Source of the DNA: Methyloversatilis sp.
Lineage (GTDB): Bacteria > Pseudomonadota > Gammaproteobacteria > Burkholderiales > Rhodocyclaceae
DNA: 49,348 nt
Assembly (NCBI RefSeq): GCF_030696805.1
Contig: NZ_JAUYRO010000083.1
Span: 1 to 49,348 of the forward strand
Direction: 5' to 3'
A program made the position numbers and the translations under genes. Position 1 is the stretch's first letter. Every line of letters begins with the position of its first letter. Below, piece after piece: positions 4,248-47,700 of the stretch. The notes below the pieces were generated by a model, which saw only the letters and a program-made list of their open reading frames with translations, had not been told where the DNA came from and searched no databases.

Positions 4248-4276
4248 TGACGTTGCTGTGTGTAATGTCTACATTA
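4248..4276 (+). promoter_or_regulatory. Predicted sigma-70 promoter of crtE superoperon
   Basis: TTGACG (4248-4253), 17-bp spacer, TACATT (4271-4276). The leader before the crtE ATG would be about 55 nt and contains a good AGGAG site. Activity is inferred from the hexamers and the overlapping PpsR palindrome. Confidence 0.55.
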
Positions 4277-4279
4277 CAT
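4262..4279. promoter_or_regulatory. PpsR/CrtJ palindrome between crtC and crtE
   Basis: TGTAATGTCTACATTACA is a TGT-N12-ACA site whose 8-base arms are perfectly inverted around CT, the most symmetrical site in the window. A weaker related element, CGACAAGCAAGCTTGACA, lies at 4293-4310, 31 bp start to start (about three helical turns). The main palindrome overlaps the predicted crtE -10, so binding should block crtE and probably also the divergent crtC promoter. Confidence 0.82.
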
Positions 4280-4337
4280 GACACTACTACGCGACAAGCA
4301 AGCTTGACAGTCGCGACGACAACAACAGGAGACGGAC

Positions 4338-31128: not shown

Positions 31129-32043
31129 ATGGCCGGAAGAGCGCAGGAAGACGCCGGCAAGGCGCGCACGACAGGAGAATACTGGTCCGACACGGACGCG
31201 CTTCAGCGAAGCCATCCGCAGTCCGGGAATCACAACGGCGGGGAGCTGGTTTTTCCGGTGGACGACTGGATGGGTGATCTCGCCCGTACCATCGAAGCCG
31301 AAATCATTCCGCGCCTCATGCTCGCGCACGGTGGCGCTGATCCGTCGGCACCGCAGGTCGCCTGTGAAGTCCGGGCACCGTCTTCACCGGAAGTGGTCGA
31401 GTTCGCGAATCTGGTTCTCGCGCAGGACGCGCGCGTCGCGCGCACGTGGGTGGAGGCGGTGCGCGCGCGCGGCGCGTCGCCTGACACGATTTTTCTTGAG
31501 TTGCTGGCGCCGGCCGCACGGCGACTCGGGGAATTGTGGGAAGCGGACCTGTGCGATTTCACGCAGGTCACGCTGGGTCTCTGGCGGATCCAGCAGGTGG
31601 TGCATGAGTTGGGGCCGAGCTTCCGCTCGGATGCCCCGTTCGCGCCGAATGGCCGCAGGGTGCTACTGTCTGCGGCGCCGGGGGATCAGCACACGCTGGG
31701 CCTGTTGATGGTCGGTGAGTTTTTCCGCAACAGTGGCTGGGAGGTCTGTGCCGAAGCATCCGGTCGCAGCCTCGACCTGGTGCTGGCGGCGCAGAATGAG
31801 TGGTTCGATGTGCTGGGTTTTTCGGTCGGTAGCGAAGCACGCATCGAACCTTTGAAGCGGCTGATTGAAGCCGTGCGTCTGGCGTCCCGCAATCGCGACC
31901 TCATCGTGATGGTGGGAGGCCCCATCTTTGTCGAACACCCTGAGTGGGTGGCACTGGTGGGTGCGGACGCGACCGCAAGTGATGCAAAAGACGCTGTGCG
32001 GCGCGCTGACGCCTTGGTGCCACTGCGATGTACGCAGGGCTGA
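31129..32043 (+). CDS. ppaA: PpaA/AerR-type B12-binding regulator
   Basis: This 304-residue protein matches PpaA/AerR, which bind cobalamin and act as light- or oxygen-sensitive partners of PpsR/CrtJ. Seen: a variable N-terminus, a helical segment FLELLAPAARRLGELWEADLCDF (about 125-145), and a Rossmann-like B12 domain beginning VLLSAAPGDQHTLGLLMVGEFF near residue 185; the His in GDQHTLG is at the family position proposed as cobalt ligand. There is no helix-turn-helix, as expected. It is encoded 85 bp before ppsR and divergent from the bchF operon. Whether it is activator or anti-repressor is not visible. Confidence 0.88.
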   Translation: MAGRAQEDAGKARTTGEYWSDTDALQRSHPQSGNHNGGELVFPVDDWMGDLARTIEAEIIPRLMLAHGGADPSAPQVACEVRAPSSPEVVEFANLVLAQDARVARTWVEAVRARGASPDTIFLELLAPAARRLGELWEADLCDFTQVTLGLWRIQQVVHELGPSFRSDAPFAPNGRRVLLSAAPGDQHTLGLLMVGEFFRNSGWEVCAEASGRSLDLVLAAQNEWFDVLGFSVGSEARIEPLKRLIEAVRLASRNRDLIVMVGGPIFVEHPEWVALVGADATASDAKDAVRRADALVPLRCTQG

Positions 32044-32128: not shown

Positions 32129-33553
32129 GTGAAGCCGTTTGAATCGCCCCTCCTATCGTTTGGAGGCGTCGATGCCAACTCCACAGCAAAACTCATCGCC
32201 GCCGCGTCGGATCTGGCGCTGGTGGTGGACAAGCAGGGCATCATCCGCGATGTAGCCTTCGGCAACGATGAACTCGTACCCGATGGTTACGAGGGCTGGG
32301 TCGGCAGACGCTGGACCGATATCGTGACGGTCGAAAGCCGCGCCAAGGTCGAAGCCCTGCTCATCGATGCTTCGGCCGAGGCCGCCCAGAAGTGGCGGCA
32401 CGTGAATCATCCGGTGTCCGGCGGCATCGACATGCCGGTGCTTTATTCGGCCATCAAGGTCGGGCACGAAGGCCGGGTTGTCGCGTTCGGCCGCGATCTG
32501 CGCTCCCTGTCGTCGCTGCAGCAGCGGCTGGTTGACGCGCAGCAGTCGATCGAGCGTGACTACGCCAAGCTACGGCAACTTGAAACCCGCTATCGCCTGC
32601 TGTTCCAGATGACATCGGAAGCGGTGCTCATCGTCGAGGCCGGCAGTCAGCGCGTCATGGAAGCCAATCCGGCCGCGCTCCGCCTGCTCGGCCCGTCACC
32701 CAAGGGACTGGTCGGGCGTACCTTCCCGGAAGGATTCGACGAAGCAGGCATGCAGTCGGCGCAGGATCTTCTGGCCAGTGTCAGGGCGGCAGGGCGTGCC
32801 GACGACGTTCGCGTGCGACTGGCCGACGATGGACGCGAGCTGCAGGTTGCAGCTTCGCTGGTGAGACAGGACAACGCCGCGCTTTTCCTCGTGCGCCTTT
32901 CGCAACGTGCCGTCGAACACACGACCTCGGGACTTCATCAGGCCTTGCTTGACGTGATGGAGAACGTGCCGGACGGATTTGTCCTGACGGATGATTCGGG
33001 CCGCATCCTGACGGCCAATCACGCGTTTCTCGATCTTTCCCAGCTCGCTTCGGTCGAGCAGGCGCGCGGCGAGCCGCTCGAACGCTGGCTGGGTCGCCCC
33101 GGCGTCGATTTCAAGGTGTTGATGGTCAACCTCCGCCAGCACGGATCGGTCAGACTGTTTTCCACCCTGGTTCGCGGCGAACATGGTTCGGATGTCGAAG
33201 TCGAAATCTCGGCTGTGTCGGTACCGCATGGCGAAACGCCATGTCTCGGCTTCACGGTGCGTGGCATCAGTCGGCGCATCGAGGCCGATCCGCGAATGGG
33301 CCGCGAACTGCCCAGGTCGGTCGAACAACTGACCGGGCTGGTCGGCCGCGTGTCGCTGAAGGAACTGGTGCGTGAATCCACCGACCTGATCGAGAAGCTG
33401 TGCATCGAGGCAGCCCTCGAACTGACGCATGACAATCGAGCATCGGCAGCCGAAATGCTCGGTCTGAGCCGGCAAAGTCTGTACGTGAAACTGCGCCGCT
33501 ACAGCATCGGCGATCTCAACGCCGAGCACGAAGACATCGAAACTGAAGATTAG
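32129..33553 (+). CDS. ppsR: Photosynthesis gene transcriptional repressor PpsR/CrtJ
   Basis: PpsR is the main regulator of photosynthesis genes and binds TGT-N12-ACA palindromes. The 474-residue protein has an N-terminal PAS domain (about 15-125), a coiled Q-linker (about 130-160, QQRLVDAQQS), two more PAS domains (about 160-265 and 285-390) and a Fis-type helix-turn-helix at the C-terminus (RASAAEMLGLSRQSLYVKLR). Only two cysteines are present, one in the third PAS domain (ETPCLG) and one just before the HTH (EKLCIEA), so the intramolecular disulphide of R. sphaeroides PpsR is probably not made in the same way. GTG at 32129 with GGGG upstream is preferred; TTG at 32066 is possible. Confidence 0.94.
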   Translation: MKPFESPLLSFGGVDANSTAKLIAAASDLALVVDKQGIIRDVAFGNDELVPDGYEGWVGRRWTDIVTVESRAKVEALLIDASAEAAQKWRHVNHPVSGGIDMPVLYSAIKVGHEGRVVAFGRDLRSLSSLQQRLVDAQQSIERDYAKLRQLETRYRLLFQMTSEAVLIVEAGSQRVMEANPAALRLLGPSPKGLVGRTFPEGFDEAGMQSAQDLLASVRAAGRADDVRVRLADDGRELQVAASLVRQDNAALFLVRLSQRAVEHTTSGLHQALLDVMENVPDGFVLTDDSGRILTANHAFLDLSQLASVEQARGEPLERWLGRPGVDFKVLMVNLRQHGSVRLFSTLVRGEHGSDVEVEISAVSVPHGETPCLGFTVRGISRRIEADPRMGRELPRSVEQLTGLVGRVSLKELVRESTDLIEKLCIEAALELTHDNRASAAEMLGLSRQSLYVKLRRYSIGDLNAEHEDIETED

Positions 33554-33712
33554 CGTCTGTTGGCACTGGCGGACCGCTCGCCAGGCCTGCTGCGTCTGGA
33601 TCAAGTCGGACACACGGCGGCTGACGTGCGCTCAAGCCGGAAGATCCGGTGCGTGATGTGGCTCAGCGGGCTCGCGTACTTCTTGTTCGCAGCCTGCCCA
33701 CCCTCTTGCCGC

Positions 33713-33757
33713 GGTGCATGCCTTGTCGAGACCCGCCGTCTCGACAAGGCATGCACC
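33713..33757 (+). terminator. Perfect 20-bp hairpin downstream of ppsR
   Basis: GGTGCATGCCTTGTCGAGAC (33713-33732) pairs without mismatch with 33738-33757 across a CCGCC loop. It lies 160 bp after the ppsR stop and has no T tract after it. It may terminate ppaA-ppsR mRNA, stabilise its 3' end, or be a dispersed palindromic repeat. Confidence 0.6.
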
Positions 33758-33786
33758 TTGGTGGGGCGTGCGCGGCAGCCCGGCCA

Positions 33787-33808
33787 GGGGTTTGACCTCA
33801 AAAACCCC
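33787..33808 (+). terminator. Small hairpin before the bchG promoter
   Basis: GGGGTTT (33787-33793) pairs with AAACCCC (33802-33808) across 8 nt. On the plus strand it is not followed by a T tract. It could insulate the bchG promoter from upstream reading. Confidence 0.35.
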
Positions 33809-33810
33809 TG

Positions 33811-33875
33811 AGTCAATCTGGGCTGACACTGCAGTGTAAGTTTGACTTGACGCATTCAAGCGTCCAGCCTACTGT
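33811..33875 (+). promoter_or_regulatory. bchG promoter with tandem PpsR-like sites
   Basis: TTGACG (33847-33852), a 17-bp spacer and TACTGT (33870-33875) form a promoter whose start site is predicted 7 nt after the -10, at the A of the bchG ATG (33882). TGTAAGTTTGACTTGACG (33835-33852) is TGT-N12-ACG, overlapping the -35; AGTCAATCTGGGCTGACA (33811-33828) is a second one-mismatch site 24 bp upstream. A 12-bp palindrome ACACTGCAGTGT (33826-33837) joins them. Confidence 0.6.
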
Positions 33876-33881
33876 TACTGC

Positions 33882-34763
33882 ATGAGTCGCCCATCCCTTT
33901 CCGTAGTCGCCGAATTCCTCAAGCCCATCACCTGGTTTCCGCCGATGTGGGCTTTCGGTTGTGGTGTCGTTGCATCCGGGTTGCCCGCTTCCGAACGCTG
34001 GCAGGTCGTCGTGGTCGGCATTCTGCTCGCCGGGCCGCTGGTCTGCGCCACCAGTCAGGCGGTCAACGACTGGTTCGACCGCCACGTCGATGCGATCAAC
34101 GAACCCAATCGCCCCATACCGTCCGGTCGCATGCCCGGCTATTGGGGTCTATACATCGCCATCGGCTGGACCGTACTGTCGCTGATGGTCGCCGCAACAC
34201 TGGGCGTATGGGGTTTCGGTGCTGCGGTGATCGGCCTGCTGCTGGCCTGGGCCTACAGCGCACCGCCATTCCGTCTGAAACAGAACGGCTGGTGGGGCAA
34301 TACCGCGTGCGCCATTTGTTACGAAGGACTGGCCTGGGTCACCGGTGCAGCCGTGATGGCTGGCGGCGCCATGCCGGACATGCGCAGCCTGCTGCTCGCC
34401 GGTCTGTACAGCGCGGGTGCGCACGGCATCATGACGCTGAATGATTTCAAGTCGGTCGAGGGTGATACCCGCATGGGCATCGGCTCGCTGCCGGTCAAGC
34501 TTGGTGTGGTGAATGCCGGACGCGTTGCGTGTCTGGTCATGGTGGTGCCACAGCTGTTCGTCGTCGCCCTGCTTTCACATTGGGGCGCCATGGGCCATGC
34601 GATGGTGGTCGGCCTGCTGCTAGCGCTGCAAGTGATGTTGATGGTGCGCCTGCTCGACAGTCCGCGCGAACTCGCCCCCTGGTACAACGGAACCGGCATC
34701 ACGCTTTACGTCGCCGGCATGCTTGTCAGCGCGTTTGCGCTGCGTGCGGTGGCGGAGATCTGA
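33882..34763 (+). CDS. bchG: Bacteriochlorophyll synthase (geranylgeranyl transferase)
   Basis: BchG esterifies bacteriochlorophyllide a with geranylgeranyl (later phytyl) diphosphate. It is a UbiA-superfamily prenyltransferase with about nine membrane helices. The 293-residue protein has the N-terminal FLKPITWFPPMWAFGCG, the first Asp-rich motif NDWFDRHVDAINEPNRPIPSG near residue 65 and the second region LNDFKSVEGDTRMGIGSLPV near 185. The ATG at 33882 has no Shine-Dalgarno and sits at the predicted transcription start, so the mRNA may be leaderless. It is followed by bch2 after 1 bp. Confidence 0.96.
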   Translation: MSRPSLSVVAEFLKPITWFPPMWAFGCGVVASGLPASERWQVVVVGILLAGPLVCATSQAVNDWFDRHVDAINEPNRPIPSGRMPGYWGLYIAIGWTVLSLMVAATLGVWGFGAAVIGLLLAWAYSAPPFRLKQNGWWGNTACAICYEGLAWVTGAAVMAGGAMPDMRSLLLAGLYSAGAHGIMTLNDFKSVEGDTRMGIGSLPVKLGVVNAGRVACLVMVVPQLFVVALLSHWGAMGHAMVVGLLLALQVMLMVRLLDSPRELAPWYNGTGITLYVAGMLVSAFALRAVAEI

Positions 34764-34764
34764 C

Positions 34765-36135
34765 ATGACCCAACTCGGCTGGCTCGGCATCTTTCGTCTC
34801 GGTCTGGTCCAGACGGCGCTCGGCGCCATCGTGGTGCTGACCACGTCGACGTTGAACCGCGTCATGGTGGTCGAGCTGGCCTTGCCGGCGATGCTGCCCG
34901 GTGTGCTGGTCGCGTTGCACTACATGGTGCAGATGCTGCGTCCGCGCATGGGGCATGGGTCCGACGTCGGCGGTCGGCGCACACCGTGGATCATCGGTGG
35001 CATGGCGGTGCTCGCTTCCGGGGGCACACTGGCCGCCGTAGCGACCGCCTGGATGGCGACCGATCAGGTCGCCGGCATCGCGCTGGCAGTGTTTGCCTTC
35101 CTGCTGATCGGTGCCGGCGTCGGCTGCGCCGGCACCTCGCTGCTGGTGCTGCTCGCCAAGCGGGTCGACCCGACCCGTCGAGCCGCCGCGGCAACCGTGG
35201 TGTGGATGATGATGATCCTCGGCTTTGCCTTGACAGCCGGCGTCACCGGAAAACTGCTGGATCCCTTCACCACGCAGCGACTGGTTCAGGTCGTAGCAGC
35301 CACTTCGCTGATCGCCTTCGTCGTTGCGCTGCTTGCAGTGCGCGGTGTCGAAGGCCGTCCGACGGCGCCTCGCGCTGCCACCGATGTTGTGTCACCCAAC
35401 CAGACCGGTGCACCGTCCCGAACCCCATTTCGCGCTGCGCTCGCCCAGGTCTGGGGCGAGTCGCAAGCGCGTCTTTTTACAATATTCGTATTCGTATCGA
35501 TGCTCGCCTACAGCGCGCAGGATCTGATACTCGAGCCGTTCGCCGGCACGGTCTTCGGCTACACGCCCGGTGAATCCACCCAGCTCGCCGGATTGCAGCA
35601 TGGCGGCGTGTTCGCCGGCATGCTGCTGGTCGCCCTGATGGGCAGCGTATTCGGCGGTCGGCAGATCGGATCGTTGAAGGTATGGACGGTCGGAGGCTGC
35701 ATTGCCTCCGCGCTTGCCCTGTTCGGTCTGGCGGCCGGCGGTTTCATGAGTGGCGACTGGCCGCTGCGCGAAACGGTATTCGTTCTCGGTGTGGCCAATG
35801 GCGCCTTTGCCGTCGCGGCCATCGCATCAATGATGAGTCTGGCCGGTGCCGGCGGTGCCGGACGCGAAGGCGTGCGGATGGGTTTGTGGGGGGCTGCGCA
35901 GGCGATCGCATTCGGCCTCGGCGGTTTTGCCGGCACGGTGGCGATCGACGTCACGCGCGCGTTCATTGAATCTCCGGGTTTTGCCTACGCGCTGGTATTT
36001 GCCTGCGAAGGCGTGCTGTTCGTCGTGTCTGCCGTCATGGCGCTGCGCATCGCCGGTGCGCCGGTCAGGCGTGCGGCGCGTGATCCGCTGTTGGCAGATC
36101 CGCCATTCATGTCCGGTATCGAAGGGAAGGCTTAG
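34765..36135 (+). CDS. PucC-family transporter-like protein (bch2/ORF428 type)
   Basis: A 456-residue, 12-helix protein of the PucC/BCD family, between bchG and bchP as in Rhodobacter (ORF428, also called bch2). Family segments are FRLGLVQTALGAIVVLTTST, LNRVMVVELALPAMLPG and QMLRPRMGHGSDVGGRRTPW near residues 8-80. A Thr/Pro-rich loop near residues 205-225 lies between the two halves. Proposed roles are moving bacteriochlorophyll or helping light-harvesting assembly; none is shown. ATG at 34765 is 1 bp after bchG. Its paralogue lhaA is at 20297. Confidence 0.88.
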   Translation: MTQLGWLGIFRLGLVQTALGAIVVLTTSTLNRVMVVELALPAMLPGVLVALHYMVQMLRPRMGHGSDVGGRRTPWIIGGMAVLASGGTLAAVATAWMATDQVAGIALAVFAFLLIGAGVGCAGTSLLVLLAKRVDPTRRAAAATVVWMMMILGFALTAGVTGKLLDPFTTQRLVQVVAATSLIAFVVALLAVRGVEGRPTAPRAATDVVSPNQTGAPSRTPFRAALAQVWGESQARLFTIFVFVSMLAYSAQDLILEPFAGTVFGYTPGESTQLAGLQHGGVFAGMLLVALMGSVFGGRQIGSLKVWTVGGCIASALALFGLAAGGFMSGDWPLRETVFVLGVANGAFAVAAIASMMSLAGAGGAGREGVRMGLWGAAQAIAFGLGGFAGTVAIDVTRAFIESPGFAYALVFACEGVLFVVSAVMALRIAGAPVRRAARDPLLADPPFMSGIEGKA

Positions 36136-36137
36136 TC

Positions 36138-37322
36138 ATGGCAAGCATGGAAAGTTTCGATGTGGTGGTGGTGGGCGGCGGACCCGCAGGGTCGACCGCA
36201 GCAACGGATCTGGCCCGTCTGGGTCACACGGTGCTGCTGCTCGATCGCGCCGGGCGCATCAAACCCTGTGGCGGGGCGATTCCGCCGCGTCTGATCGAGG
36301 AATTCGCGATTCCCGACGAGCAACTGGTCGCTAAAGCGCGTTCGGCGCGGATGATTTCACCGTCCGGCCGCAAAGCCGACATGCCGATCGAGGGAGGCTT
36401 CGTCGGCATGGTCGATCGAGAGCAGTTCGACGAATACCTGCGCTGCCGCGCCAGTCTGGCGGGTGCGCATCGCCGCACGGGCACCTTCGACCGGGTCGAA
36501 CGCGATGACGACGGCCGGGCCATCGTTCATTTCCGCAGCCATGAAGCGGAAGGCGGAACGGTGGGTGTGCGCGCCCGAGCCATCATCGGCGCAGACGGCG
36601 CCTTGTCGGCGGTCGGTCGCCAGTGCGTGCCCGGTGCCGACGAGGTTCAATGCGTATATGCGTATCACGAAATCGTCCGTTCGCCGAAGCAGGACTTCGA
36701 CGGCAGCCGTTGCGACGTGTATTACCAGGGCGTCCTGTCACCCGATTTCTACGGCTGGGTTTTCCCGCACGGCGACACAACCAGCATAGGCACCGGCACG
36801 GCGACCAAGGGTTTTTCGATCCGTCAGGGCACCACCGCGCTGCGCGAGGCGGCCGGCCTTACCGGTGCCGAAACCATCCGCCGCGAAGGCGCGCCGATTC
36901 CGATGAAGCCGCTGCGCAAGTGGGACAACGGCCGCGATGTCGTGCTCGCCGGCGATGCGGCGGGCGTCGTGGCGCCGGCCTCCGGCGAGGGGCTGTATTA
37001 CGCGATGACCGGTGGCCGGCTGGCCGCCGATGCCGTCGGCAGCTTTCTCGAAACGGGTGATGCGCGCGCGCTGGCAACGGCCCGCAAGCGCTTCATGAAG
37101 GCGCACGGCCGGGTGTTCATGATTCTCGGCATCATGCAGCGCTTCTGGTACGCCAGCGACAAGCGGCGCGAACGCTTCGTCAGCATCTGCCGTGATCCGG
37201 ATGTGCAGCACCTGACGTGGCAGGCCTACATGCACAAGAAGCTGGTCAAGGCGAAGCCGATGGCGCATGCGCGCATCTTCTTCAAGGATCTGGCTCACTT
37301 GTGCGGCATCGTATCGCCGTGA
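36138..37322 (+). CDS. bchP: Geranylgeranyl reductase
   Basis: BchP reduces the geranylgeranyl tail of bacteriochlorophyll to phytyl in three NADPH-dependent steps. The 394-residue flavoprotein has an FAD-binding N-terminus VVVVGGGPAGSTAATDLARLG (about 9-30), IKPCGGAIPPRLIEEF near 42, and the second FAD motif VVLAGDAAGVVAPASGEGLYYAMTGG (cited as a landmark near 270). ATG at 36138 is 2 bp after bch2, with GGGAAGG upstream. The stop overlaps the GTG of tspO (GTGA), implying coupled translation. Confidence 0.95.
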   Translation: MASMESFDVVVVGGGPAGSTAATDLARLGHTVLLLDRAGRIKPCGGAIPPRLIEEFAIPDEQLVAKARSARMISPSGRKADMPIEGGFVGMVDREQFDEYLRCRASLAGAHRRTGTFDRVERDDDGRAIVHFRSHEAEGGTVGVRARAIIGADGALSAVGRQCVPGADEVQCVYAYHEIVRSPKQDFDGSRCDVYYQGVLSPDFYGWVFPHGDTTSIGTGTATKGFSIRQGTTALREAAGLTGAETIRREGAPIPMKPLRKWDNGRDVVLAGDAAGVVAPASGEGLYYAMTGGRLAADAVGSFLETGDARALATARKRFMKAHGRVFMILGIMQRFWYASDKRRERFVSICRDPDVQHLTWQAYMHKKLVKAKPMAHARIFFKDLAHLCGIVSP

Positions 37323-37816
37323 ACACGATCGCCGCCCCGCGTTGGCAGCCGGTTGTTGCGGCCGCTGTGGCGGCGATGCTGGTGGCCGGTCTGGGTGCTG
37401 CTGCGACCGATCTGAGCCCTTGGTACGAAGCGTTGCACAAGCCGGCCTGGCAGCCGCCAGCCTGGTTGTTCGGCCCGGCCTGGACGCTGATTTTCGGACT
37501 TGCCGCAATGGCCGGTGTGTTGGGATGGGTGCATGCGCCCGATGCCAGCGCGCGGCGCCGGATGATTTCCTTGTTTGCGCTCAATGGCGGGCTCAACGTG
37601 TTGTGGAGTGCGCTGTTCTTTCATTTCAAGCGGCCTGACTGGGCGCTCTATGAAGTCGGCCTGCTCTGGCTGTCGGTGGCCTGGCTGGCGCTTCATCTGC
37701 GCGCGTCATCACGTACGGCGGCCAGCCTTTTGTTGCCTTACCTCGCGTGGGTGGCATTCGCGGCATTGCTCAACCTCGCGGTGGTCGAGCTGAATGCGCC
37801 GTTCGAGGCAAATTGA
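37319..37816 (+). CDS. tspO: TspO/MBR family protein (CrtK-like)
   Basis: This 165-residue membrane protein belongs to the TspO/peripheral benzodiazepine receptor family. Five helices are predicted, with family signatures SPWYEALHKPAWQPPAWLFGPAW near residues 30-52 and NGGLNVLWSALFFHFKRPDWAL near 90-111. In Rhodobacter, TspO (CrtK) is an outer-membrane porphyrin-linked negative regulator of photosynthesis genes under oxygen. The GTG at 37319 overlaps the bchP stop. It is the last gene of the bchG operon. Regulatory function here is inferred. Confidence 0.92.
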   Translation: MNTIAAPRWQPVVAAAVAAMLVAGLGAAATDLSPWYEALHKPAWQPPAWLFGPAWTLIFGLAAMAGVLGWVHAPDASARRRMISLFALNGGLNVLWSALFFHFKRPDWALYEVGLLWLSVAWLALHLRASSRTAASLLLPYLAWVAFAALLNLAVVELNAPFEAN

Positions 37817-37923
37817 CCGGATCAATATCGATGTTTTCGATCGTTCATACACGCTGACATGTATTTTTTGATGAGTTACCGTAGCATGCGGGGATGTGGT
37901 GTGAAGAAGTAAGGAGCACCGTC

Positions 37924-37992
37924 TTGTCGGACATGACATCAGGCCGCTGGCGAGGCTGCGCAATGACGCGCGCCGCGTGCGGAGAATGCTGA
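37924..37992 (+). CDS. Possible 22-residue leader peptide
   Basis: A TTG at 37924 has AAGGAG 7 nt upstream and opens a 22-residue frame (SDMTSGRWRGCAMTRAACG-like, with three cysteines and several arginines) ending TGA at 37990-37992. An in-frame ATG lies at 37933. It is too short to assess by composition. It is reported because its Shine-Dalgarno lies inside one arm of a perfect inverted repeat whose other arm is just downstream of the stop. Confidence 0.25.
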   Translation: MSDMTSGRWRGCAMTRAACGEC

Positions 37993-38053
37993 TGCAGTGC
38001 GAGGGTGCTCCTGTGCAGACTTTTGCGCCCCGTCCATGTGACATGCCGTGCCC

Positions 38054-38073
38054 CCCGGTAGGCGCCGGGTTTT
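38054..38073 (+). terminator. Terminator-like hairpin in the ppsR-like leader
   Basis: CCCGG pairs with CCGGG across TAGGCG and is followed at once by TTTT (38070-38073). The stem is only 5 bp but all GC. It lies about 60 bp before the ATG of the PpsR-like gene, so termination there would be premature. Confidence 0.35.
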
Positions 38074-38131
38074 GCAATTCATGCAGGTTCGCACGCTGTG
38101 CTTTGCGACTGCGTTCATCCGGTTCCGTATC

Positions 38132-39322
38132 ATGAACAAGCTACCGAACGACCCGGGCGATCTGAGCGCGTTTTCGGAGGTCGCCCCCGAACTGGCCGAC
38201 ATGCTGGTGTCGGTCACCAGTGACATTGCACTCGTGCTCGACGACAAGGGCTTCATCCGCAGCGTCGCGCTGGGTGGTGCAGAACCTGTCAGCGCGACTG
38301 CCAGCGAGTGGCTGGGCCGCCAGCTGGTGGATACGGTGACGCGCGACACCCGTCGCAAGGTCGAGGAACTGTTGCGCGAAGCCAATGTGGCAGGCGTATC
38401 GCGCACACGTCACATCAATCATCCCTCCGCTGCCGGCGCCGACATTCCGGTTGCGTATACGGCGGTGCGGCTCGGTCAATCCGGCCCGCTTCTGGTCGCC
38501 GGACGTGACCTGCGCGCCGTGTCCGTCATGCAGCAACGTCTGGTCGACGCGCAGCAATCGATGGAACGCGACTACTGGCGCATGCGCCAGGCGGAAACCC
38601 GCTATCGCTTGCTGTTCCAGATTGCGACGGATGCAGTGCTCATCATCGACGCCGATACCTTGCACGTGATCGACGCCAACCGCGCCGCAGCACGCATGTT
38701 CGGCTGCTCGGTGCAGGACATGCCGGGACGTCAGGCCACGGATGGTGTCGCACCGGCTTCACTCGGAACGCTGGAAGAACTGCTGGGCACGGTGCGTGTT
38801 TCAGGCCGCCCGGGCGAGGCTCACATCACGTTGTCGGGGCTTGGCGGCGCCATCCACGTATGGGTATCGCCGCTGCGTGGCGAAGGACAGAGCCTCTTGC
38901 TGCTGCGCGCCACACCCGATGGCAGCTCGTCGCTCATTGCGCCTGACGACCCGTTGCTGCCCGAACTGATGCGCCTCACCCCTGACGCCATCGTGTTCAC
39001 CAACGAACAGGGCATGTTGCTGAGCATGAACGCCGCGTTTGCCGAACTGGTCAAGATTTCGGCTGAAAAGGGCGTCCAGAGCCGTTCCCTCGGTGATTGG
39101 CTGGAACGTGACGGCGGTGGATTCACGAATCTTCTCGCCAGTGTGTGCCGCTCAGGCGTAAAACGCATGGGCGCGCGTCTGTGGGACGAGAAGGGCATGG
39201 CCACGGATATTGAACTGTCGGCCGTATTGATCCATAACGGAGATTCGAACAGTATCGGTTTCATCATTCGCGCGGTGCAGCCGCGTGGTCCGGGTGCGCC
39301 GCACCCGGGCAGCGTGCACTGA
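38132..39322 (+). CDS. PpsR paralogue lacking the DNA-binding domain
   Basis: This 396-residue protein is clearly homologous to the PpsR at 32129. It has an N-terminal PAS domain (about 20-128), a coiled Q-linker (133-163) with 25 of 31 residues identical to PpsR, and two further PAS domains (about 163-270 and 285-385). It stops right after the last PAS domain (SIGFIIRAVQPRGPG...), where PpsR continues into the helix-turn-helix. No HTH is found in other frames downstream. ATG at 38132 lacks a clear Shine-Dalgarno; a GTG at 38048 and ATG at 38081 are in frame. It is co-directional with bphP (31 bp gap). It may mix with PpsR and act as an anti-repressor. Confidence 0.85.
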   Translation: MNKLPNDPGDLSAFSEVAPELADMLVSVTSDIALVLDDKGFIRSVALGGAEPVSATASEWLGRQLVDTVTRDTRRKVEELLREANVAGVSRTRHINHPSAAGADIPVAYTAVRLGQSGPLLVAGRDLRAVSVMQQRLVDAQQSMERDYWRMRQAETRYRLLFQIATDAVLIIDADTLHVIDANRAAARMFGCSVQDMPGRQATDGVAPASLGTLEELLGTVRVSGRPGEAHITLSGLGGAIHVWVSPLRGEGQSLLLLRATPDGSSSLIAPDDPLLPELMRLTPDAIVFTNEQGMLLSMNAAFAELVKISAEKGVQSRSLGDWLERDGGGFTNLLASVCRSGVKRMGARLWDEKGMATDIELSAVLIHNGDSNSIGFIIRAVQPRGPGAPHPGSVH

Positions 39323-39353
39323 ACACCGCTCAGCCCGCGGTGGCGGGAGATCA

Positions 39354-41543
39354 GTGTTGAACGATCCGACATTCAGCCCTGCTTTCGGTCAGGCAGACCT
39401 GACCAATTGCGAACGTGAACTCATCCACCTGGCCGGATCGATCCAGCCGCACGGTGTGCTGCTGGTCGTCCGCCGCACGGATGGCGTCATCGTACAGGCG
39501 AGCGACAACGTCGCGCTCTGGCTGGGTGTGGCCCATGACCAGCTGCTGGGCTGTTCGCTCGATGTGCTGGGCGGCTCGCTTGCCCGGCGTGTTGCCGAAC
39601 TCGCGGACACGCTCGTTACGGATGAACTGACCGCCTTTCACTGCGACATCGGCGGAGCCGGGACGAATGCTTGGAGTGTGTTCGAAGGCATGGCCCATCT
39701 CGGCCAGTCCGACACGGTGATCGTCGAACTGGAATCCGCCGAGTCCGATACTGAATCGATCGACGAGGAAGCGCAGGCTTTGCTTGCGGCGTCAGTGCGG
39801 CGCTTCAGCGAGGCGCTCAGCATTGCTGCGCTGTCCGACGCCGTGGTTCAGTCAGTCCGCGACCTGACCGGCTACGACCGTGTGATGGTGTACCGCTTCG
39901 ACGACGAGGGCCACGGCGAGATCGTCGCCGAGGCGCGCGAGGCAAAACTTGAATCCCTGCTCGGACATCGCTACCCGGCGACCGATATTCCGCAGCGCGC
40001 GCGCGAGCTGTATGTCCGCAACCGGGTGCGGGTACTCGTCGATGCGGGCTACAACCCTGCGGCCGTACTGCCGCGCTGCGCGCCGGACACTGGCGAAGAG
40101 CTCGACATGTCGAGCTGCCATCTGCGCAGCATGTCGCCGCTGCACATCCAGTATCTGCGGAACATGGGCGTGACCGCCACCCTCGTGGTTTCGCTCGTGC
40201 GCGAGGGCAAGCTGTGGGGGCTGATCGCCTGTCATCACTACTCGCCACGGCACATCCGCTATGCACAGCGTGCGGCGGTCGATCTGCTGGCCGAGGTGGT
40301 GTCCACCCGGATCGCCGCGATCGAAAATTACGTGCGCACTCAGGTCGATGTGCTGGTGCGCAGCCTTGAACTGCGCTTGATCGAAGCCACTTCGACCGAA
40401 GGCGACTGGCGCCTCGCGCTGGTTCGCAACCCGCGCACCTTGCTGCAGCCGCTCGATGCAAGCGGCGCCGCACTGTTCCATGAAGGTGAATTGCTGACTG
40501 TGGGTGACGTGCCGTCGACCGCCGAGTTGCGTGCACTGTCGCGCTGGGTTGCCGGCGAAATGCGGCAGTCGCTGTTCAGCTGTGCGTCGATCGCTCGCGT
40601 GTATCCGCCGCTGGCATCCCTGACACCGGTGGTATGCGGGGTGCTCGCGATCGAACTGTCGTCGTCCGGGCAGGATTTCCTGATGTGGTTCCGGCGCGAA
40701 CAGTCGGCCACGATCGTCTGGGCGGGAGATCCTGCCAAACCCTTCGTCGACAACGATCCGCTCACGCTTTCGCCACGGCGTTCCTTTGCCGCCTGGTCGG
40801 AGATCGTGCGTGGCACGGGTGCGTCCTGGAGCCGCGCTGATCTGGCGCTGGCGCGCGCCATCGGTACCACGCTGCGCGACGTCATCCTGCAGACGCAGGC
40901 CGTGAGCCTGTTGATCGCGCAGCACCAGCTCGATCAATTCCGCGGAGCCGTCGAAACGTCGGATGAGCCGGTGCTGGTCGCAAACGCTCAGGGGCGCGTG
41001 CTGTTCCAGAGCGTGGCTTTCGCGGCACTGTTCAATACCTCGCCGCCTCGTGTACGCACACTCGACGAAATGTGCGCCCTGTTTGTCGTACCGGCCCAGG
41101 TGCGCGAAGTCGTCGGCAACCTCATCCGCGAGCGCGACGCCTGGCGTGGCGAATGGCAACTGCGCGCCGGCGCCGGCCAGACCGTGGCGCTGGGGGTCAG
41201 GGCAGACGCGATTCCCGGCGCCGGTGGATCGGTCCTGGGCTACATCATCATCTTCACCGACCTGACCGACACCAAGCGCACGGAAGCCGCACGGCGGCAT
41301 CTCGAACAGTCACTCAGCGAAGCCGGCCGTGCCGGCATCGGGCGCGATCCGTCCATGCCGCTGCGGCGCGAGCCGGACGAGGTGGTGGGCGCCATTCTTG
41401 CCAATGCCAGTGTGGCTGCCATGGAGCTGACCGACACGGCTGCTTCGATGCCGGTGGCGACGCTCATCGAGGAACTGGAAGCGTCCGCTACCCGCGCCGC
41501 CGCGCTGTACGGCAAGTTGCGCGCCTTCACTCGGGAGCACTGA
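39354..41543 (+). CDS. bphP: Bacteriophytochrome without histidine kinase
   Basis: A 729-residue biliverdin-binding red/far-red photoreceptor. Seen in order: the chromophore cysteine C19 in LTNCERELIHLAGSIQPHG; PAS; GAF with PATDIPQRARELY (208-213, Asp211) and CHHYSPRHI (His294/295 region); PHY with VWAGDP and PRRSF (474-478), the tongue contacts; then a PAS domain (about 525-640) and a helical tail (about 640-729). There is no H-box, and no N/G boxes of a kinase ATPase. This matches the type that controls PpsR in R. palustris and Bradyrhizobium by direct contact. Start GTG 39354 or TTG 39357, after GGGAG. Confidence 0.92.
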   Translation: MLNDPTFSPAFGQADLTNCERELIHLAGSIQPHGVLLVVRRTDGVIVQASDNVALWLGVAHDQLLGCSLDVLGGSLARRVAELADTLVTDELTAFHCDIGGAGTNAWSVFEGMAHLGQSDTVIVELESAESDTESIDEEAQALLAASVRRFSEALSIAALSDAVVQSVRDLTGYDRVMVYRFDDEGHGEIVAEAREAKLESLLGHRYPATDIPQRARELYVRNRVRVLVDAGYNPAAVLPRCAPDTGEELDMSSCHLRSMSPLHIQYLRNMGVTATLVVSLVREGKLWGLIACHHYSPRHIRYAQRAAVDLLAEVVSTRIAAIENYVRTQVDVLVRSLELRLIEATSTEGDWRLALVRNPRTLLQPLDASGAALFHEGELLTVGDVPSTAELRALSRWVAGEMRQSLFSCASIARVYPPLASLTPVVCGVLAIELSSSGQDFLMWFRREQSATIVWAGDPAKPFVDNDPLTLSPRRSFAAWSEIVRGTGASWSRADLALARAIGTTLRDVILQTQAVSLLIAQHQLDQFRGAVETSDEPVLVANAQGRVLFQSVAFAALFNTSPPRVRTLDEMCALFVVPAQVREVVGNLIRERDAWRGEWQLRAGAGQTVALGVRADAIPGAGGSVLGYIIIFTDLTDTKRTEAARRHLEQSLSEAGRAGIGRDPSMPLRREPDEVVGAILANASVAAMELTDTAASMPVATLIEELEASATRAAALYGKLRAFTREH

Positions 41544-41566: not shown

Positions 41567-42217
41567 TCAGCCGGGCTGCGCCGCAGCCAGTTCATCGAAC
41601 ATCGCGATGTGCCGCCGAAATCCCGATTGCGCCTCCGCCACCAGCGCATCGATGCGCGCCGAGTCCTGCGGCAGTGCGTCGAGCCCGTCGCGGTAACGAC
41701 GGATCAGACTCCCCAACTCGCCGTGGAACGCGTAAAAGCGTGTGCCACGGTCATCCTGTAGATGCAGTGCACCGGACACCACACGCCCTAGCACCTGACC
41801 GCCGTGCAGGTCACCCAGATGACGCACATAGGAATGCGCGGCGAGCAGCGCCGGCTGGTCGGTCGACAGCGCCTTCAGATGGGCCGCGTATTCGACCGCC
41901 GCCAAGCTGGGCAGGATGTCGTCCGACCAACTGCTGCCATGCAACGCGCACAGGTCGTCGTGCAGCGCCGCGGTGCGCGGCAATTCAGGCAGGCACAGCG
42001 GCGCGATGTCCGGTCGTCGGGCGTGCCGTGCCAGCCCGCTTTCGAGTGCGTCGTACAGAAGGTGAAGGCTGCGCAGAAGGCTGCAGTAGGCGCGCGTCTC
42101 GATGCGACCCTGCAACAACCGGGCCATCAGGCCGCTGCGTTCGGCAATCCGATGCAGTTGTGCGGTATCCGTACGAAGTCGCGCTGCGAGACCGGCGGTG
42201 ACAAGAGCTCCATGCAT
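41567..42217 (-). CDS. bphO: Biliverdin-producing heme oxygenase
   Basis: A 216-residue heme oxygenase that opens heme to biliverdin, the chromophore of the adjacent phytochrome. Seen: the proximal histidine region TAQLHRIAERSGLMARLLQG (His22 or so), and the distal-helix motif SYVRHLGDLHGGQVLGRVV with the GxxxG-type glycines. It is convergent with bphP (23 bp between stops), so the pair forms a sensor/chromophore module. ATG at 42217 has no good Shine-Dalgarno; the open frame extends far upstream without homology. Oxygen dependence of the enzyme may tie BphP assembly to oxygen. Confidence 0.9.
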   Translation of the reverse strand: MHGALVTAGLAARLRTDTAQLHRIAERSGLMARLLQGRIETRAYCSLLRSLHLLYDALESGLARHARRPDIAPLCLPELPRTAALHDDLCALHGSSWSDDILPSLAAVEYAAHLKALSTDQPALLAAHSYVRHLGDLHGGQVLGRVVSGALHLQDDRGTRFYAFHGELGSLIRRYRDGLDALPQDSARIDALVAEAQSGFRRHIAMFDELAAAQPG

Positions 42218-42261
42218 CCGGAAATGATAACGTGCGCGGCCGGCACAGCAGCGGAGGAAAA

Positions 42262-42537
42262 ATGGCTGAGTGGATGTCCGATGGACGATTGATCGATCTG
42301 ATCGTGGTGCTCGTGCTGATCGAGTGGCTCGCGTTCGCTGCCTGGCATCGCCGCACCGGGAAGGGCCTGTCGGGTGGCAAGCTGCTGCCCAATCTCGCGG
42401 CCGGGCTGTGTCTGATGCTGGCGCTGCGCTCGGCACTGACCGACGCATCGTGGCTGTGGGTCGCGCTTTTCGTCGCGCTGTCAGGCGTGGCGCACGTCGC
42501 CGACCTGTGGTGCCGCTGGCCGCGCCAGCGGGGCTGA
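42262..42537 (+). CDS. Small membrane protein, function unknown
   Basis: A 91-residue protein starting at ATG 42262 with a near-perfect GGAGG site 5 nt upstream. Three hydrophobic segments are visible: LIDLIVVLVLIEWLAFAAW (about 10-28), LLPNLAAGLCLMLALRSAL (about 41-59) and WLWVALFVALSGVAHVADLW (about 64-83), separated by a basic loop HRRTGKGLSGGK. It is divergent from bphO with only 44 bp between starts. I do not recognise a function; proteins of this shape are conserved hypotheticals in proteobacteria. Confidence 0.75.
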   Translation: MAEWMSDGRLIDLIVVLVLIEWLAFAAWHRRTGKGLSGGKLLPNLAAGLCLMLALRSALTDASWLWVALFVALSGVAHVADLWCRWPRQRG

Positions 42538-44083: not shown

Positions 44084-44794
44084 ATGAAACAACCGCTCAT
44101 CAACACCCTTCGTACGTCGCTGGCCCTCGCGCTGATGGCAGCGCTGCCTGCACAGGCCGAACCCATTCTGGTCACCGGCTGGGCCTCGCCGGGTCCGGCA
44201 GCTGTGGTGCGCATCTCCAATACCGTACCGGCCGTCGATTCGCGGGTGTATGCCGGCGCCTTCGCGACAATGGAAAGTGGCAGCAACACTTTCGCGTCGT
44301 GGTGCATCGACATCTTCCAGCGCACGCAGATCGGCGCCACCGTGACCAACTTTTCGCAGGTCACCGGTGAAGCCTTCTTCGGCGTCCAGACCACTCGCTT
44401 CGATCAGCTCGGTCAGCTGGCGACGTTGGCCTACGCCGATGCACTGAGCAGTGTCACCCACGCCGCCGCCTTCCAGCTTGCGATCTGGGAAATCACCAAC
44501 GAAACCAGCGGCACGCTCAATGTAGGTGGCGGCAGCTTCAAGGCCTCCAATGCCAACGACGCCATGGTGCTCGCACAAACCTGGCTCGATGCATTGCCTG
44601 CCGAGTCGCTTTACGGCTTCAACGTATGGACGAGCAGCACCCATCAGGATCTGGTGGTGTTCGACATGCTTCCGCCCCGCCTGCCGCAGCCCGCGCAGGG
44701 TGTTCCGGAACCGGGCACTCTGGCGCTGGCCGCGCTGGGATTCGGTGCGCTGTTTGCCGCGCGTCGTCGCAAGACTTTCAGCGCTGCCGTCTGA
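44084..44794 (+). CDS. PEP-CTERM sorting domain protein
   Basis: A 236-residue exported protein with a signal peptide (TSLALALMAALPAQAEP) and a C-terminal PEP-CTERM signal: VPEPGTLALAALGFGALFAA, then RRRK. Such proteins are cut and released or anchored by the exosortase EpsH system, usually linked to extracellular polysaccharide. The body has a conserved SWCIDIFQ segment and YADALSSVTHAAAFQLAIWEI. ATG at 44084; upstream open frame is not supported. Its stop overlaps the convergent uvrA-like gene by 17 bp. The exosortase genes are not in the window. Confidence 0.88.
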   Translation: MKQPLINTLRTSLALALMAALPAQAEPILVTGWASPGPAAVVRISNTVPAVDSRVYAGAFATMESGSNTFASWCIDIFQRTQIGATVTNFSQVTGEAFFGVQTTRFDQLGQLATLAYADALSSVTHAAAFQLAIWEITNETSGTLNVGGGSFKASNANDAMVLAQTWLDALPAESLYGFNVWTSSTHQDLVVFDMLPPRLPQPAQGVPEPGTLALAALGFGALFAARRRKTFSAAV

Positions 44795-47700
44795 CGCTGA
44801 ACCGGGCCAGCGCGTGGGCGGTGTGCGAATCAGTCACTTGCGCCGCCTGCGCGACCAGCGCCTCCGGTGAGCCGGCGGTCACGACCTGACCGCCGCCGCC
44901 GCCGCCTTCCGGCCCAAGGTCGATGATCCAGTCGGCTTCGGCCATCAGATCGAGATCGTGCTCGATCACCACCACACTGTGCCCGGCATCAACCAGCCGG
45001 TGCAGTACCCCGATCAGCTTTGCGATGTCGGCCATGTGCAGTCCGGTCGTCGGTTCGTCCAGCACATAAAGCGTGTGCGGATTGCCGCGGCCGCGTCGGG
45101 CGTTCGCCGGGTCGTTCGAGTTTTCAGCACTGGCTGGTGACTTGGCCAGTTCGGTCACCAGTTTCATGCGCTGTGCCTCACCGCCGGACAGTGTCGGGCT
45201 GTGCTGACCCAGCGTCAGATAGCCGAGTCCCACCTCCTGCATCAGTCTGAGCGTTGCCGACAGCGTGCGGTGCGCGGCAAAGAAATCCACCGCTTCGTCC
45301 ACACTCATCGCCAGCACATCGGAAATCGACTTGCCGCGCCACATGACGGCGCGCGTTTCGCTGTTGAAGCGCGCGCCGCCGCAGGCTTCGCACGGCACCC
45401 GCACATCGGGCAGGAAGGACATTTCGATCTGCCTCAGTCCCTGGCCTTCACAGAGCGTGCACCGGCCTGGGCCGGTGTTGAACGAAAAGCGTGCTGCGGT
45501 GAAGCCGCGTTCGCGTGCGTCCTGCGTTTCGGCGTAGATCTTGCGGATGCCGTCCCAGAAGCCGATATAGGTCGCCGGGCAGGAGCGCGGCGTCTTGCCG
45601 ATCGGCGTCTGGTCGACCTCGATCACGCGGCCGAGCGCACCCCAGCCTTCGATGTCTGCGCAGCCGATGAAATGGCCGTCGTGGCCCGCCAGTTTGGCCG
45701 CCACGTTGTCGCGCAGCACGTCGCGCGCCAGTGACGACTTGCCGGAACCCGACACACCGGTCATCACGACCAGCCGGCCGAGCGGCACGCGGACGTCCAT
45801 ACCCTTGAGGTTGTGCAGCGTCGCCGCACGCACCCAGAGCGACGGCGTGTCGTCATCGACCGGGCGCCGCGGCACGAAACTGTGCGGCAGCGGGCGCGCC
45901 AGATACTGGCCGGTGATCGACTTCGGCTGCTGCGCCAGCACCGACGCGTGGCCTTGAGCGATCACTTCTCCGCCCAGCCGGCCGGCGCCGGGGCCGAGGT
46001 CGATCACGTGGTCGGCGCGCAGGATGGTGTCTTCGTCGTGCTCGACCACCAGCAGCGTATTGCCCTTGTCGCGCAGCTTCACCAGCGTATCGAGCAGCAC
46101 CTGGTTGTCGCGCGGGTGCAGGCCGATGGTCGGTTCATCGAGTACGTAGCACACGCCGCGCAGGTTCGAGCCCAGTTGGGCGGCCAGCCGTATGCGCTGT
46201 GCCTCGCCACCGGATAGCGTGGGCGCGGCGCGATCCAGCGACAGGTAGCCGAGTCCGACTTCGCTCAGAAAGTGCAGCCGGCTGCCCAGCTCGCTCACGA
46301 CGTCGCGGGCGATGTCGGCATCGCGTCCCGCCAGTGACCAGCTGCCGATCGCCGCCGACAGCGTGCTGACCGGCTGCGCCGTGAGCTGTGCGATCGACTG
46401 GCCGAACAGCTTCACATGGCGCGCCACCGGATTGAGCCGTTCGCCTTCGCAGGCCGGGCAGGCTTCAGGCTCGTCCTGCTGCCACTCGTTCCAGGTCGCT
46501 TCTTCGCCGGTCTGATCGCCGTCAAAACCGGTCAGCTGCAGACCGGTGCCCATACATTTCGGACACCAGCCATGCTTCGAGTTGAACGAAAAAAGCCGCG
46601 GGTCGAGCTCGGCAAAACCGGTGCCGCAGCTCGGGCAGGCGCGCTGGGTCGAATACACCTCGACCGTCGGGGCCGGCGCGTCCGGCTGGCCCAGCCGGTC
46701 CAGTGGCGCGAGCAGGTGCAGCACACCCTTGCCGTGTTCGAGCGACTGTCGCACCGCGTCGCGCAGCGTCTTTTCGTCGCGCTCGCTGACCACGAAATCG
46801 CGGATTGGCAGCTCTATCGTGTGTTCCTTGAAGCGATCCAGCCGCGGCCAGGGCGAGGTCGGCAGGAATTCGCCGTCCACGCGCAGATGGGTGTGGCCGT
46901 GCGACTTCGCCCAGCGCGCCAGTTCGGTGTAGTAGCCCTTGCGGCCGATCACCAGCGGCGCCAGCAGGCCGATGTGCTGGCCTCGGCGCTCGCGCAGGAT
47001 GCGCGCCACCATCGCGTCCTCGGTCTGCGGTGCGATCGCACAGCCGCAGTCGGGGCAGTGCTGCACGCCCAGCTTCACATACAACAGCCGGAGGAAGTGG
47101 TAGATCTCGGTCTGCGTCGCCACGGTGCTCTTGCGGCCGCCGCGGCTGGTGCGCTGGGCGATCGCCACGGCCGGCGGAATGCCGAACACGCCGTCGACAT
47201 CCGGCTTGCTTTCCGGCTGCACGAACTGGCGCGCGTACGCGTTGAGCGACTCAAGATAGCGACGCTGGCCTTCGCCGAACACGATGTCGAACGCCAGCGT
47301 CGATTTGCCCGACCCGGATACGCCGGTCACCACCGTGAAGCGGTCGCGCGGGATGTCGACCTCGATATTCTTCAGATTGTGCTCGCGCGCGCGGTGCACG
47401 ACGATCGAGTGCGCGGCACGGGCGCGCAGGCTGGGGGTCTGGCCGAAGGAGGCCCTTTCTTCCCTCACCCCGACCCTCTCCCGCTGATGCGGGAGAGGGA
47501 GCAAACCCTCGCCCGGCTCCCCGCTGCTCTCCCTCTCCCCGATCACGGGGAGGGGGTCGGCGTGAGGGGCAAAGACCTCCGTCAGACGGTACGCTGCCAG
47601 CGCCCGCCCCGTGTGCGAGGCTGCGCAGGTCACGATCTGCGCTGGCGTGCCTTCGAACACGAGCTGGCCGCCGTCCTCGCCCGCTTCCGGGCCGAGGTCG

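Follow-up and report, generated by a model that had tools for sequence, protein, structure and literature searches.

The photosynthesis gene cluster in a 49,348-nucleotide stretch of Methyloversatilis sp. DNA (contig NZ_JAUYRO010000083.1 of assembly GCF_030696805.1; hereafter 'the window', meaning the whole stretch analysed) encodes, in addition to a full-length PpsR, a 396-amino-acid PpsR homologue that is without the helix-turn-helix (HTH) domain and is directly followed by bphP, the gene of a kinase-less bacteriophytochrome. Judged by sequence and gene order, this HTH-less paralogue seems to derive from PpsR2, the second PpsR of known phytochrome-linked systems, and to have become DNA-blind. 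We suggest, tentatively and with rather less than even confidence, that PpsR2 has more than once been turned into a DNA-blind relay that would pass a far-red signal to PpsR through hetero-oligomers, possibly with reversed sign.

A PpsR homologue without a helix-turn-helix and its phytochrome partner

The paralogue scores 283.9 bits against the PpsR profile TIGR02040, above the curated cut-off of 275.4, with a match that ends at position 366 (positions 1-366 of 442); the primary PpsR scores 520 bits over positions 1-442 of 442. A Pfam scan places HTH_8 in the primary PpsR (residues 421-458, 43 bits) and returns only PAS-type matches, with no HTH_8, in the paralogue. The two proteins are 37% identical over 370 columns (E 6e-83), in an alignment that stops at the start of the HTH region, and the best match of the paralogue in the Protein Data Bank (PDB) is 4hh2, the HTH-deleted PpsR of Rhodobacter sphaeroides (residues 15-369, E 7.3e-35). 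An earlier, sequence-only reading had recognized the protein as a PpsR relative through its PAS domains and Q-linker (25 of 31 linker residues identical, counted by eye) and had placed its end where the HTH should start. Both observations held: N-PAS, Q-linker, PAS1 and PAS2 of the PpsR/CrtJ family are all found, while the C-terminal Fis-type HTH that defines the family is missing from the Pfam matches, the TIGR02040 match and the downstream frames.

That reading had also asked whether an HTH might lie in another frame behind the stop codon. None was seen, by eye, between the stop and bphP in 13 related loci, and because the 31-bp gap in the window is too short to hold one, a sequencing frameshift or a hidden downstream HTH is ruled out. 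The 396-residue paralogue is thus a PpsR homologue without an HTH and, since the HTH is absent, a PpsR-derived protein rather than a PpsR repressor.

The phytochrome, which the earlier reading had described as kinase-less and 31 bp downstream, bears out this description: bphP opens with a GTG at 39354, and its Pfam domains are PAS_2-GAF-PHY-PAS with no kinase match. Its best PDB match is 4gw9 (E 2.8e-174, residues 6-641), which is RpBphP1 of Rhodopseudomonas palustris without the HOS domain (PMC6899989). The C-terminal ~88 residues past residue 641 align with a tail found in 18 of 18 BphPs compared, and the place and size of this tail fit a two-helix HOS output, the reference 4gw9 chain itself being without HOS. 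Cys, DIP and PRxSF motifs are kept, together with the tail, in all 18 aligned BphPs. With a PAS-GAF-PHY-PAS9 layout, the biliverdin Cys and no histidine kinase, the protein fits the RpBphP1 type (type 3, PAS9-HOS), its tail being a putative HOS.

The genes of the cluster concerned here are listed below; those from the AerR-like gene to bphP form a run on the + strand, and bphO is convergent.

31129..32043, + strand: B12-binding regulator gene adjoining ppsR (Pfam B12-binding and B12-binding_2), presumably AerR/PpaA-like, from its place upstream of ppsR
32129..33553, + strand: ppsR, full-length primary PpsR (P0001), 474 amino acids, intact Fis-type HTH (TIGR02040 520 bits; HTH_8 at residues 421-458)
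33882..34763, + strand: bchG-like UbiA prenyltransferase (UbiA match), syntenic marker
34723..36135, + strand: PucC-family major facilitator superfamily (MFS) gene (PUCC 313.7 bits), syntenic marker
36138..37322, + strand: bchP-like reductase (FAD/lycopene-cyclase-type matches), syntenic marker
37217..37816, + strand: tspO-like gene (TspO_MBR 134 bits)
38132..39322, + strand: HTH-less PpsR paralogue (P0002), in the ppsR2 position, N-PAS/Q-linker/PAS1/PAS2, 396 amino acids
38513..38620, + strand: Q-linker within the paralogue (residues 128-163), with Q141 and E145
39354..41543, + strand: bphP, RpBphP1-type bacteriophytochrome, 729 amino acids, PAS-GAF-PHY-PAS9 and C-terminal tail, without kinase
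41567..42448, − strand: bphO, heme oxygenase, which makes biliverdin (Heme_oxygenase 164.5 bits over residues 87-286)

The bphO open reading frame (ORF) may be overcalled by ~80 codons at its start, as tblastn alignments begin at residue 76-91 in most distant relatives; they start at residue 25-29 in the loci L069 and L070. The name bchP is taken from the published cluster list of Bradyrhizobium (PMC10569730).

Conservation and distribution of second PpsRs

Searching 13 genomes of the genus with TIGR02040 gave two copies in ten and none in three. In each of the ten PpsR-bearing genomes the profile match of one copy runs to position 442 and that of the other ends at 362-369, so that a sporadic truncation, which the sequence-only reading had named as fatal to its proposal, is ruled out by the pairing of an HTH-less copy with a full-length PpsR in 10/10. 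The frame of the paralogue is open in nine of the ten, at 60-99% identity to the window copy. Gene order in the fetched regions is kept as ppsR-bchG-pucC-bchP-tspO-paralogue-bphP-bphO, with the exception of G010, which carries its primary ppsR on a different contig and in which tspO matched as a fragment only. Ratios of nonsynonymous to synonymous substitution (dN/dS) within the genus, with dS near or above 1 in distant pairs, are 0.015-0.25 for the paralogue (8 pairs), 0.02-0.26 for PpsR (7 pairs) and 0.06-0.31 for BphP, which shows the paralogue to be under purifying selection.

Beyond the genus we used partial samples (199 genomes from the family, 399 from the order, 200 from family f49, 398 from the phylum and 367 from another class, taken to be the Alphaproteobacteria), and in three scans only the best 4 candidates per genome were scored (8 in two scans); counts of second copies are therefore minimum values, and a genome said to have one PpsR is one in which a single copy was detected. 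Of the 90 genomes in the order that were seen to carry PpsR, at least 34 have a second one: ten in the genus, six in family f29 (genus g96), 17 in f49 and one in f20. A full-length PpsR is present in all 34. The search for the same architecture beside bphP in relatives, suggested by the earlier reading, was productive, with bphP directly following the second PpsR in 32/34 genomes. Co-occurrence was searched in 80 genomes, namely 77 of the 90 PpsR-bearing genomes and the three genus genomes without PpsR; among the 77, BphP and a second PpsR were both found in 32, BphP only in one, a second PpsR only in two and neither in 42. One PpsR was found in each of the 13 remaining PpsR-bearing genomes. 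The locus of the second PpsR-bphP pair varies, lying away from bchG-bchP in many f49 genomes, and where a fetched locus holds both PpsR genes a bchG-like gene stands between them, except in L067, where the block is rearranged.

The loss of the HTH is a matter of degree across these genomes. A motif built on the near-invariant residues of the PpsR recognition helix (S-R-Q..Y.K) occurs in none of 29 second copies, in 63 of 64 primary PpsRs and in 28 of 28 other PpsRs. The 29 are drawn from a set of 33 second copies (matches longer than 600 bases, with L130 added by hand), four near-copies from the genus being omitted; a copy with an in-frame stop in G004 was left out of the set, the motif count and the tree described below, and the 64 primary rows are fetched loci with duplicates removed. 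HTH_8, for which the Pfam cut-off is 22 bits, scores 43 bits in the primary PpsR; in ten second copies it scores 34-25 bits in five and 17-15 bits in three, and gives no match in two. On these sequence criteria, the HTHs of second copies range from altered to absent across the sampled order.

One candidate case of HTH loss was rejected. In genus g126 (family f22) the profile match stops at 367-368, and an intact HTH follows in 3/3 genomes. In these primary PpsRs (L181-L183) the match is broken between PAS2 and the intact HTH, probably by an insert.

Origin of the paralogue and its known relatives

In the published Bradyrhizobium cluster the order is BphP, ppsR2, cycA, bchP, MFS, bchG, ppsR1 (PMC10569730). 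The window matches this list, with tspO replacing cycA and the HTH-less gene filling the ppsR2 slot, and bphP lies directly beside the second PpsR within the cluster of the first, as in the BphP/PpsR2/PpsR1 switch. Both RpBphP1-RpPpsR2 of R. palustris and BrBphP-PpsR2/PpsR1 of Bradyrhizobium likewise set a kinase-less RpBphP1-type phytochrome beside a second PpsR; there, however, PpsR2 has an HTH and represses by binding DNA, and its counterpart in the window is without this domain. From its place in a known arrangement, that of ppsR2, the gene looks to us like a modified PpsR2 and not like an unrelated paralogue. A recent duplication of ppsR within the genus is ruled out by the 37% identity of the paralogue to the window PpsR, against 52-65% for primary PpsRs of other families of the order, and by their separation in the tree.

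In two genomes of the other class (G1258 and G1292) the second PpsR is linked to bphP and its HTH is intact. In a third, G1278 (L168), a second PpsR with intact HTH adjoins, on the opposite strand, a more distant phytochrome (31.8% identity, residues 12-501). We built a tree without HTH columns from 24 of 33 second copies, 22 of 64 primary PpsRs, 10 of 28 others and 11 rows from the other class. The second copies of f29 (g96) nest with the PpsR2 of G1258 and G1292 (support 100/100 and 96/84, the bootstrap being not fully settled), and those of the window genus, f49 and f20 form a separate clade (99/97). BphP identities split in the same way, the f29 proteins being 0.60-0.63 identical to those of G1258 and G1292 and 0.41-0.48 to those of the window genus, f49 and f20. 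Without the other-class rows, a single clade of all second copies is not rejected (approximately unbiased test, p-AU 0.286). On this tree, three changes are needed to account for the missing HTH segment and two for the missing motif; taken at face value, the tree needs the HTH segment to have been lost three times, in two bphP-ppsR2 lineages.

Probable light signalling through protein contacts

The regions that the second copies keep suggest what they may do. Mean identities in f49, given for second copies among themselves and then for their co-resident PpsRs among themselves (15 of 17 second copies), are 0.57 and 0.50 for N-PAS, 0.64 and 0.71 for the Q-linker, 0.44 and 0.41 for PAS1, 0.38 and 0.59 for PAS2 and 0.41 and 0.86 for the HTH, so that constraint in the f49 second copies has shifted to the N-terminal half. 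In the genus, the Q-linker of the paralogue is 0.72 identical to that of primary PpsRs (primaries among themselves, 0.69), and PAS1 and PAS2 are 0.31-0.33 identical. Q141 and E145 of the paralogue are invariant in 30 aligned sequences. They are the equivalents (a numbering offset of 5 being inferred) of Gln134 and Glu138, the Q-linker tetramer contacts of R. sphaeroides PpsR (PMC3949515), each of which is kept in 32 of the 33 second copies; the PAS2 side of this contact (Arg339/Leu340) aligned ambiguously and was not used.

R. sphaeroides PpsR without its HTH (4hh2), which has the same domain layout as the paralogue, forms dimers and tetramers with a dimer-tetramer dissociation constant of 0.9 uM, equal to that of the full-length protein, and N-Q-PAS1 suffices for dimerization (PMC3949515). 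It is a laboratory truncation, and R. sphaeroides PpsR is governed by AppA, not by a phytochrome. Rubrivivax PpsR is also a tetramer (PMC4452267). Because PpsR tetramerizes at the same dissociation constant without its HTH, and because the Rubrivivax protein is a tetramer, mixed oligomers are the simplest outlet for the paralogue, and by this analogy hetero-oligomers with PpsR are plausible. For the phytochrome, the Q-linker and PAS1 of R. palustris PpsR2 alone bind BphP1 in near-infrared light (PMC13058837). QPAS1, the engineered fragment of RpPpsR2 that does so, is like the paralogue an HTH-free piece of PpsR2, but consists of the Q-linker and one PAS domain and is without oligomerization, whereas the natural paralogue keeps three PAS domains.

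We therefore set out a mechanism to which we give about an even chance: a DNA-blind PpsR2 derivative co-assembles with PpsR, and binding of BphP in its Pr state changes PpsR repression. The paralogue keeps the dimerization half and, by analogy, also the phytochrome-docking part (N-PAS, Q-linker and PAS1); using its N-domain and Q-linker, it would assemble together with the full-length PpsR that the cluster also encodes. Such mixed oligomers would have too few HTHs to hold paired TGT-N12-ACA sites; as oligomers short of HTHs should bind poorly, the paralogue would be an antirepressor, and a dominant-negative action is plausible. Both the mixing with PpsR and the loss of repression are what we infer here. 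Since the HTH end has been lost or eroded more than once, and since proteins are the only route of action left to a BphP partner that has no HTH, light probably acts via protein contacts and not via the paralogue touching DNA.

The sign of the response would depend on how BphP acts. RpBphP1 of R. palustris is converted by far-red light to Pr, the state that binds PpsR2 (PMC6899989); of the two Bradyrhizobium PpsRs, PpsR2 acts as a repressor and PpsR1 as an activator (PMC10569730). Here the Pr state made by far-red light would bind the paralogue and alter the capacity of PpsR to repress. Should BphP-Pr withdraw the paralogue, repression would return under far-red light, opposite to what happens in R. 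palustris; should it work through the mixed oligomer, far-red light would lift repression, as it does there. The withdrawal variant would suit aerobic phototrophs; LdaP, an antirepressor of Dinoroseobacter, works in the dark (PMC12654162).

Several observations weigh against the proposed mechanism, some of them shared with the rival explanations considered below. No TGT-N12-ACA site lies upstream of the paralogue-bphP pair in 32433-38131. In the model of the RpBphP1-RpPpsR2 complex based on small-angle X-ray scattering, BphP contacts fall on the PpsR2 HTH (PMC6899989), which the paralogue is without; its authors urge caution, and QPAS1 binds with no HTH. Second copies in f49 are slightly closer to the PpsR of their own genome in N-PAS (6/5000 permutations as high, n=14), a co-adaptation signal that hints at N-domain pairing, with permutations that ignore phylogeny and with no own-genome signal for the Q-linker (2252/5000), PAS1 or PAS2. 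To these are added the five of ten scanned second copies above the HTH_8 cut-off, an in-frame TAG near codon 195 in one genus paralogue (G004, L074), one genome with BphP and no second PpsR (G381), and two with a second PpsR and no BphP (G632, 80% complete, and G767).

The five copies above the cut-off (25-34 bits against 22) may therefore still bind some DNA, and it could be that second PpsRs with partial HTHs regulate DNA with altered specificity, only the window genus and part of g96 being DNA-blind. We consider this improbable: the recognition motif is missing from 29/29 second copies, and the f49 HTHs are far less alike among second copies than among PpsRs (0.41 against 0.86). It is just as improbable, in our view, that the paralogue is a PpsR2 remnant heading for loss. 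The stop codon in one of ten genus copies, the bphP-bphO of G381 with no PpsR adjacent and the faster second copies of genus g96 (dN/dS 0.10-0.21 against 0.03-0.05 for PpsR, two pairs) point that way; dN/dS ratios far under 1 in every one of the 10 pairs, the frame that is open, at 60-99% identity to the window copy, in nine of ten genus genomes and the near-perfect co-occurrence with bphP point the other.

Two further alternatives accept the paralogue as functional. It could be a sink for the phytochrome, full-length PpsR being the real target of BphP and the HTH-less copy competing for BphP-Pr and so setting a light threshold. The paralogue does retain the Q-linker and PAS1, sufficient for BphP1 binding in R. 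palustris, and its gene is co-linear with bphP; yet N-PAS, unneeded for that binding, is the most tightly kept domain relative to PpsR, and there would be little call for a sink to have three PAS domains and to be selected as strongly as PpsR is in the genus. This we regard as unlikely. Quite unlikely, too, is that the paralogue relays the BphP signal elsewhere, for example by titrating the AerR/PpaA-like B12 protein through its Q-linker. On PpsR, the antirepressor AppA docks at the Q-linker (PMC3949515), AerR has been docked to CrtJ on the AppA-PpsR model (PMC9144470), and an AerR-like B12 gene adjoins ppsR in the window and in every fetched locus that holds a primary ppsR. The same gene, however, stands beside ppsR in G272, G389 and G419 (L181-L183), genomes in which one PpsR was found, and therefore does not track the paralogue.

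Some details of the exceptional genomes may be recorded here. G004 is a single-contig genome whose paralogue frame is intact past the TAG and has the same endpoint as its relatives; the TAG is either a natural nonsense codon or a sequencing error. The second PpsRs of G632 (L126) and G767 (L130 and L163) have an eroded HTH and no adjacent bphP, and are orphans of the pair. In G381, the 16 kb fetched (L161, G381:C1:216000-232000) hold an RpBphP1-like bphP and bphO with no PpsR match, and the BphP is about equidistant from both BphP lineages (identity 0.40-0.48).

Elsewhere in the window, TGT-N12-ACA occurs 14 times against 6.36 expected, a count reached by 1/100 shuffles. One site, at 38208, falls within the paralogue-bphP gene pair, and two overlapping sites at 4261 and 4266 (4261-4283) lie ahead of an ORF at 4338. 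A 1503-amino-acid UvrA-like ORF (44778-49289, − strand) has a UvrA interaction domain and several P-loop matches; the usual length of UvrA, about 940 amino acids, is far below this.

Parts of this arrangement are already known: a type-3 BphP with PpsR2, two PpsRs per cluster, engineered HTH-free PpsR pieces and ORF350 of Roseateles depolymerans. The last is a crtJ/PpsR homologue found besides ppsR in a photosynthesis cluster, with its contribution unassigned; the word 'phytochrome' is absent from the main text of its description (PMC10037100). Among the matches listed in the open-licence literature, as far as its available text goes, we found neither an HTH-less PpsR encoded with a phytochrome nor repeated loss of the HTH. 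AppA and LdaP are light-controlled and act on PpsR by binding (PMC3949515, PMC12654162). Here, by contrast, the go-between would itself be a PpsR without an HTH. To our knowledge, neither AppA nor LdaP is a PpsR homologue.

The paralogue scores high enough to be annotated as 'transcriptional regulator PpsR' though it has no DNA-binding domain, and recognizing this changes how light control over photosynthesis genes in these bacteria is to be read. Repeated loss of a single domain, with selection still acting on what is left, amounts to a natural deletion experiment, which splits the BphP-docking and oligomerizing job of PpsR2 from DNA binding and makes testable the old question of how work is shared among two PpsRs and a phytochrome. 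As natural counterparts of QPAS1, the second copies could supply HTH-free partners for near-infrared optogenetics. If the relay that we propose is real, hetero-oligomers of PpsR1 and PpsR2 would already have mattered before the HTH was lost.

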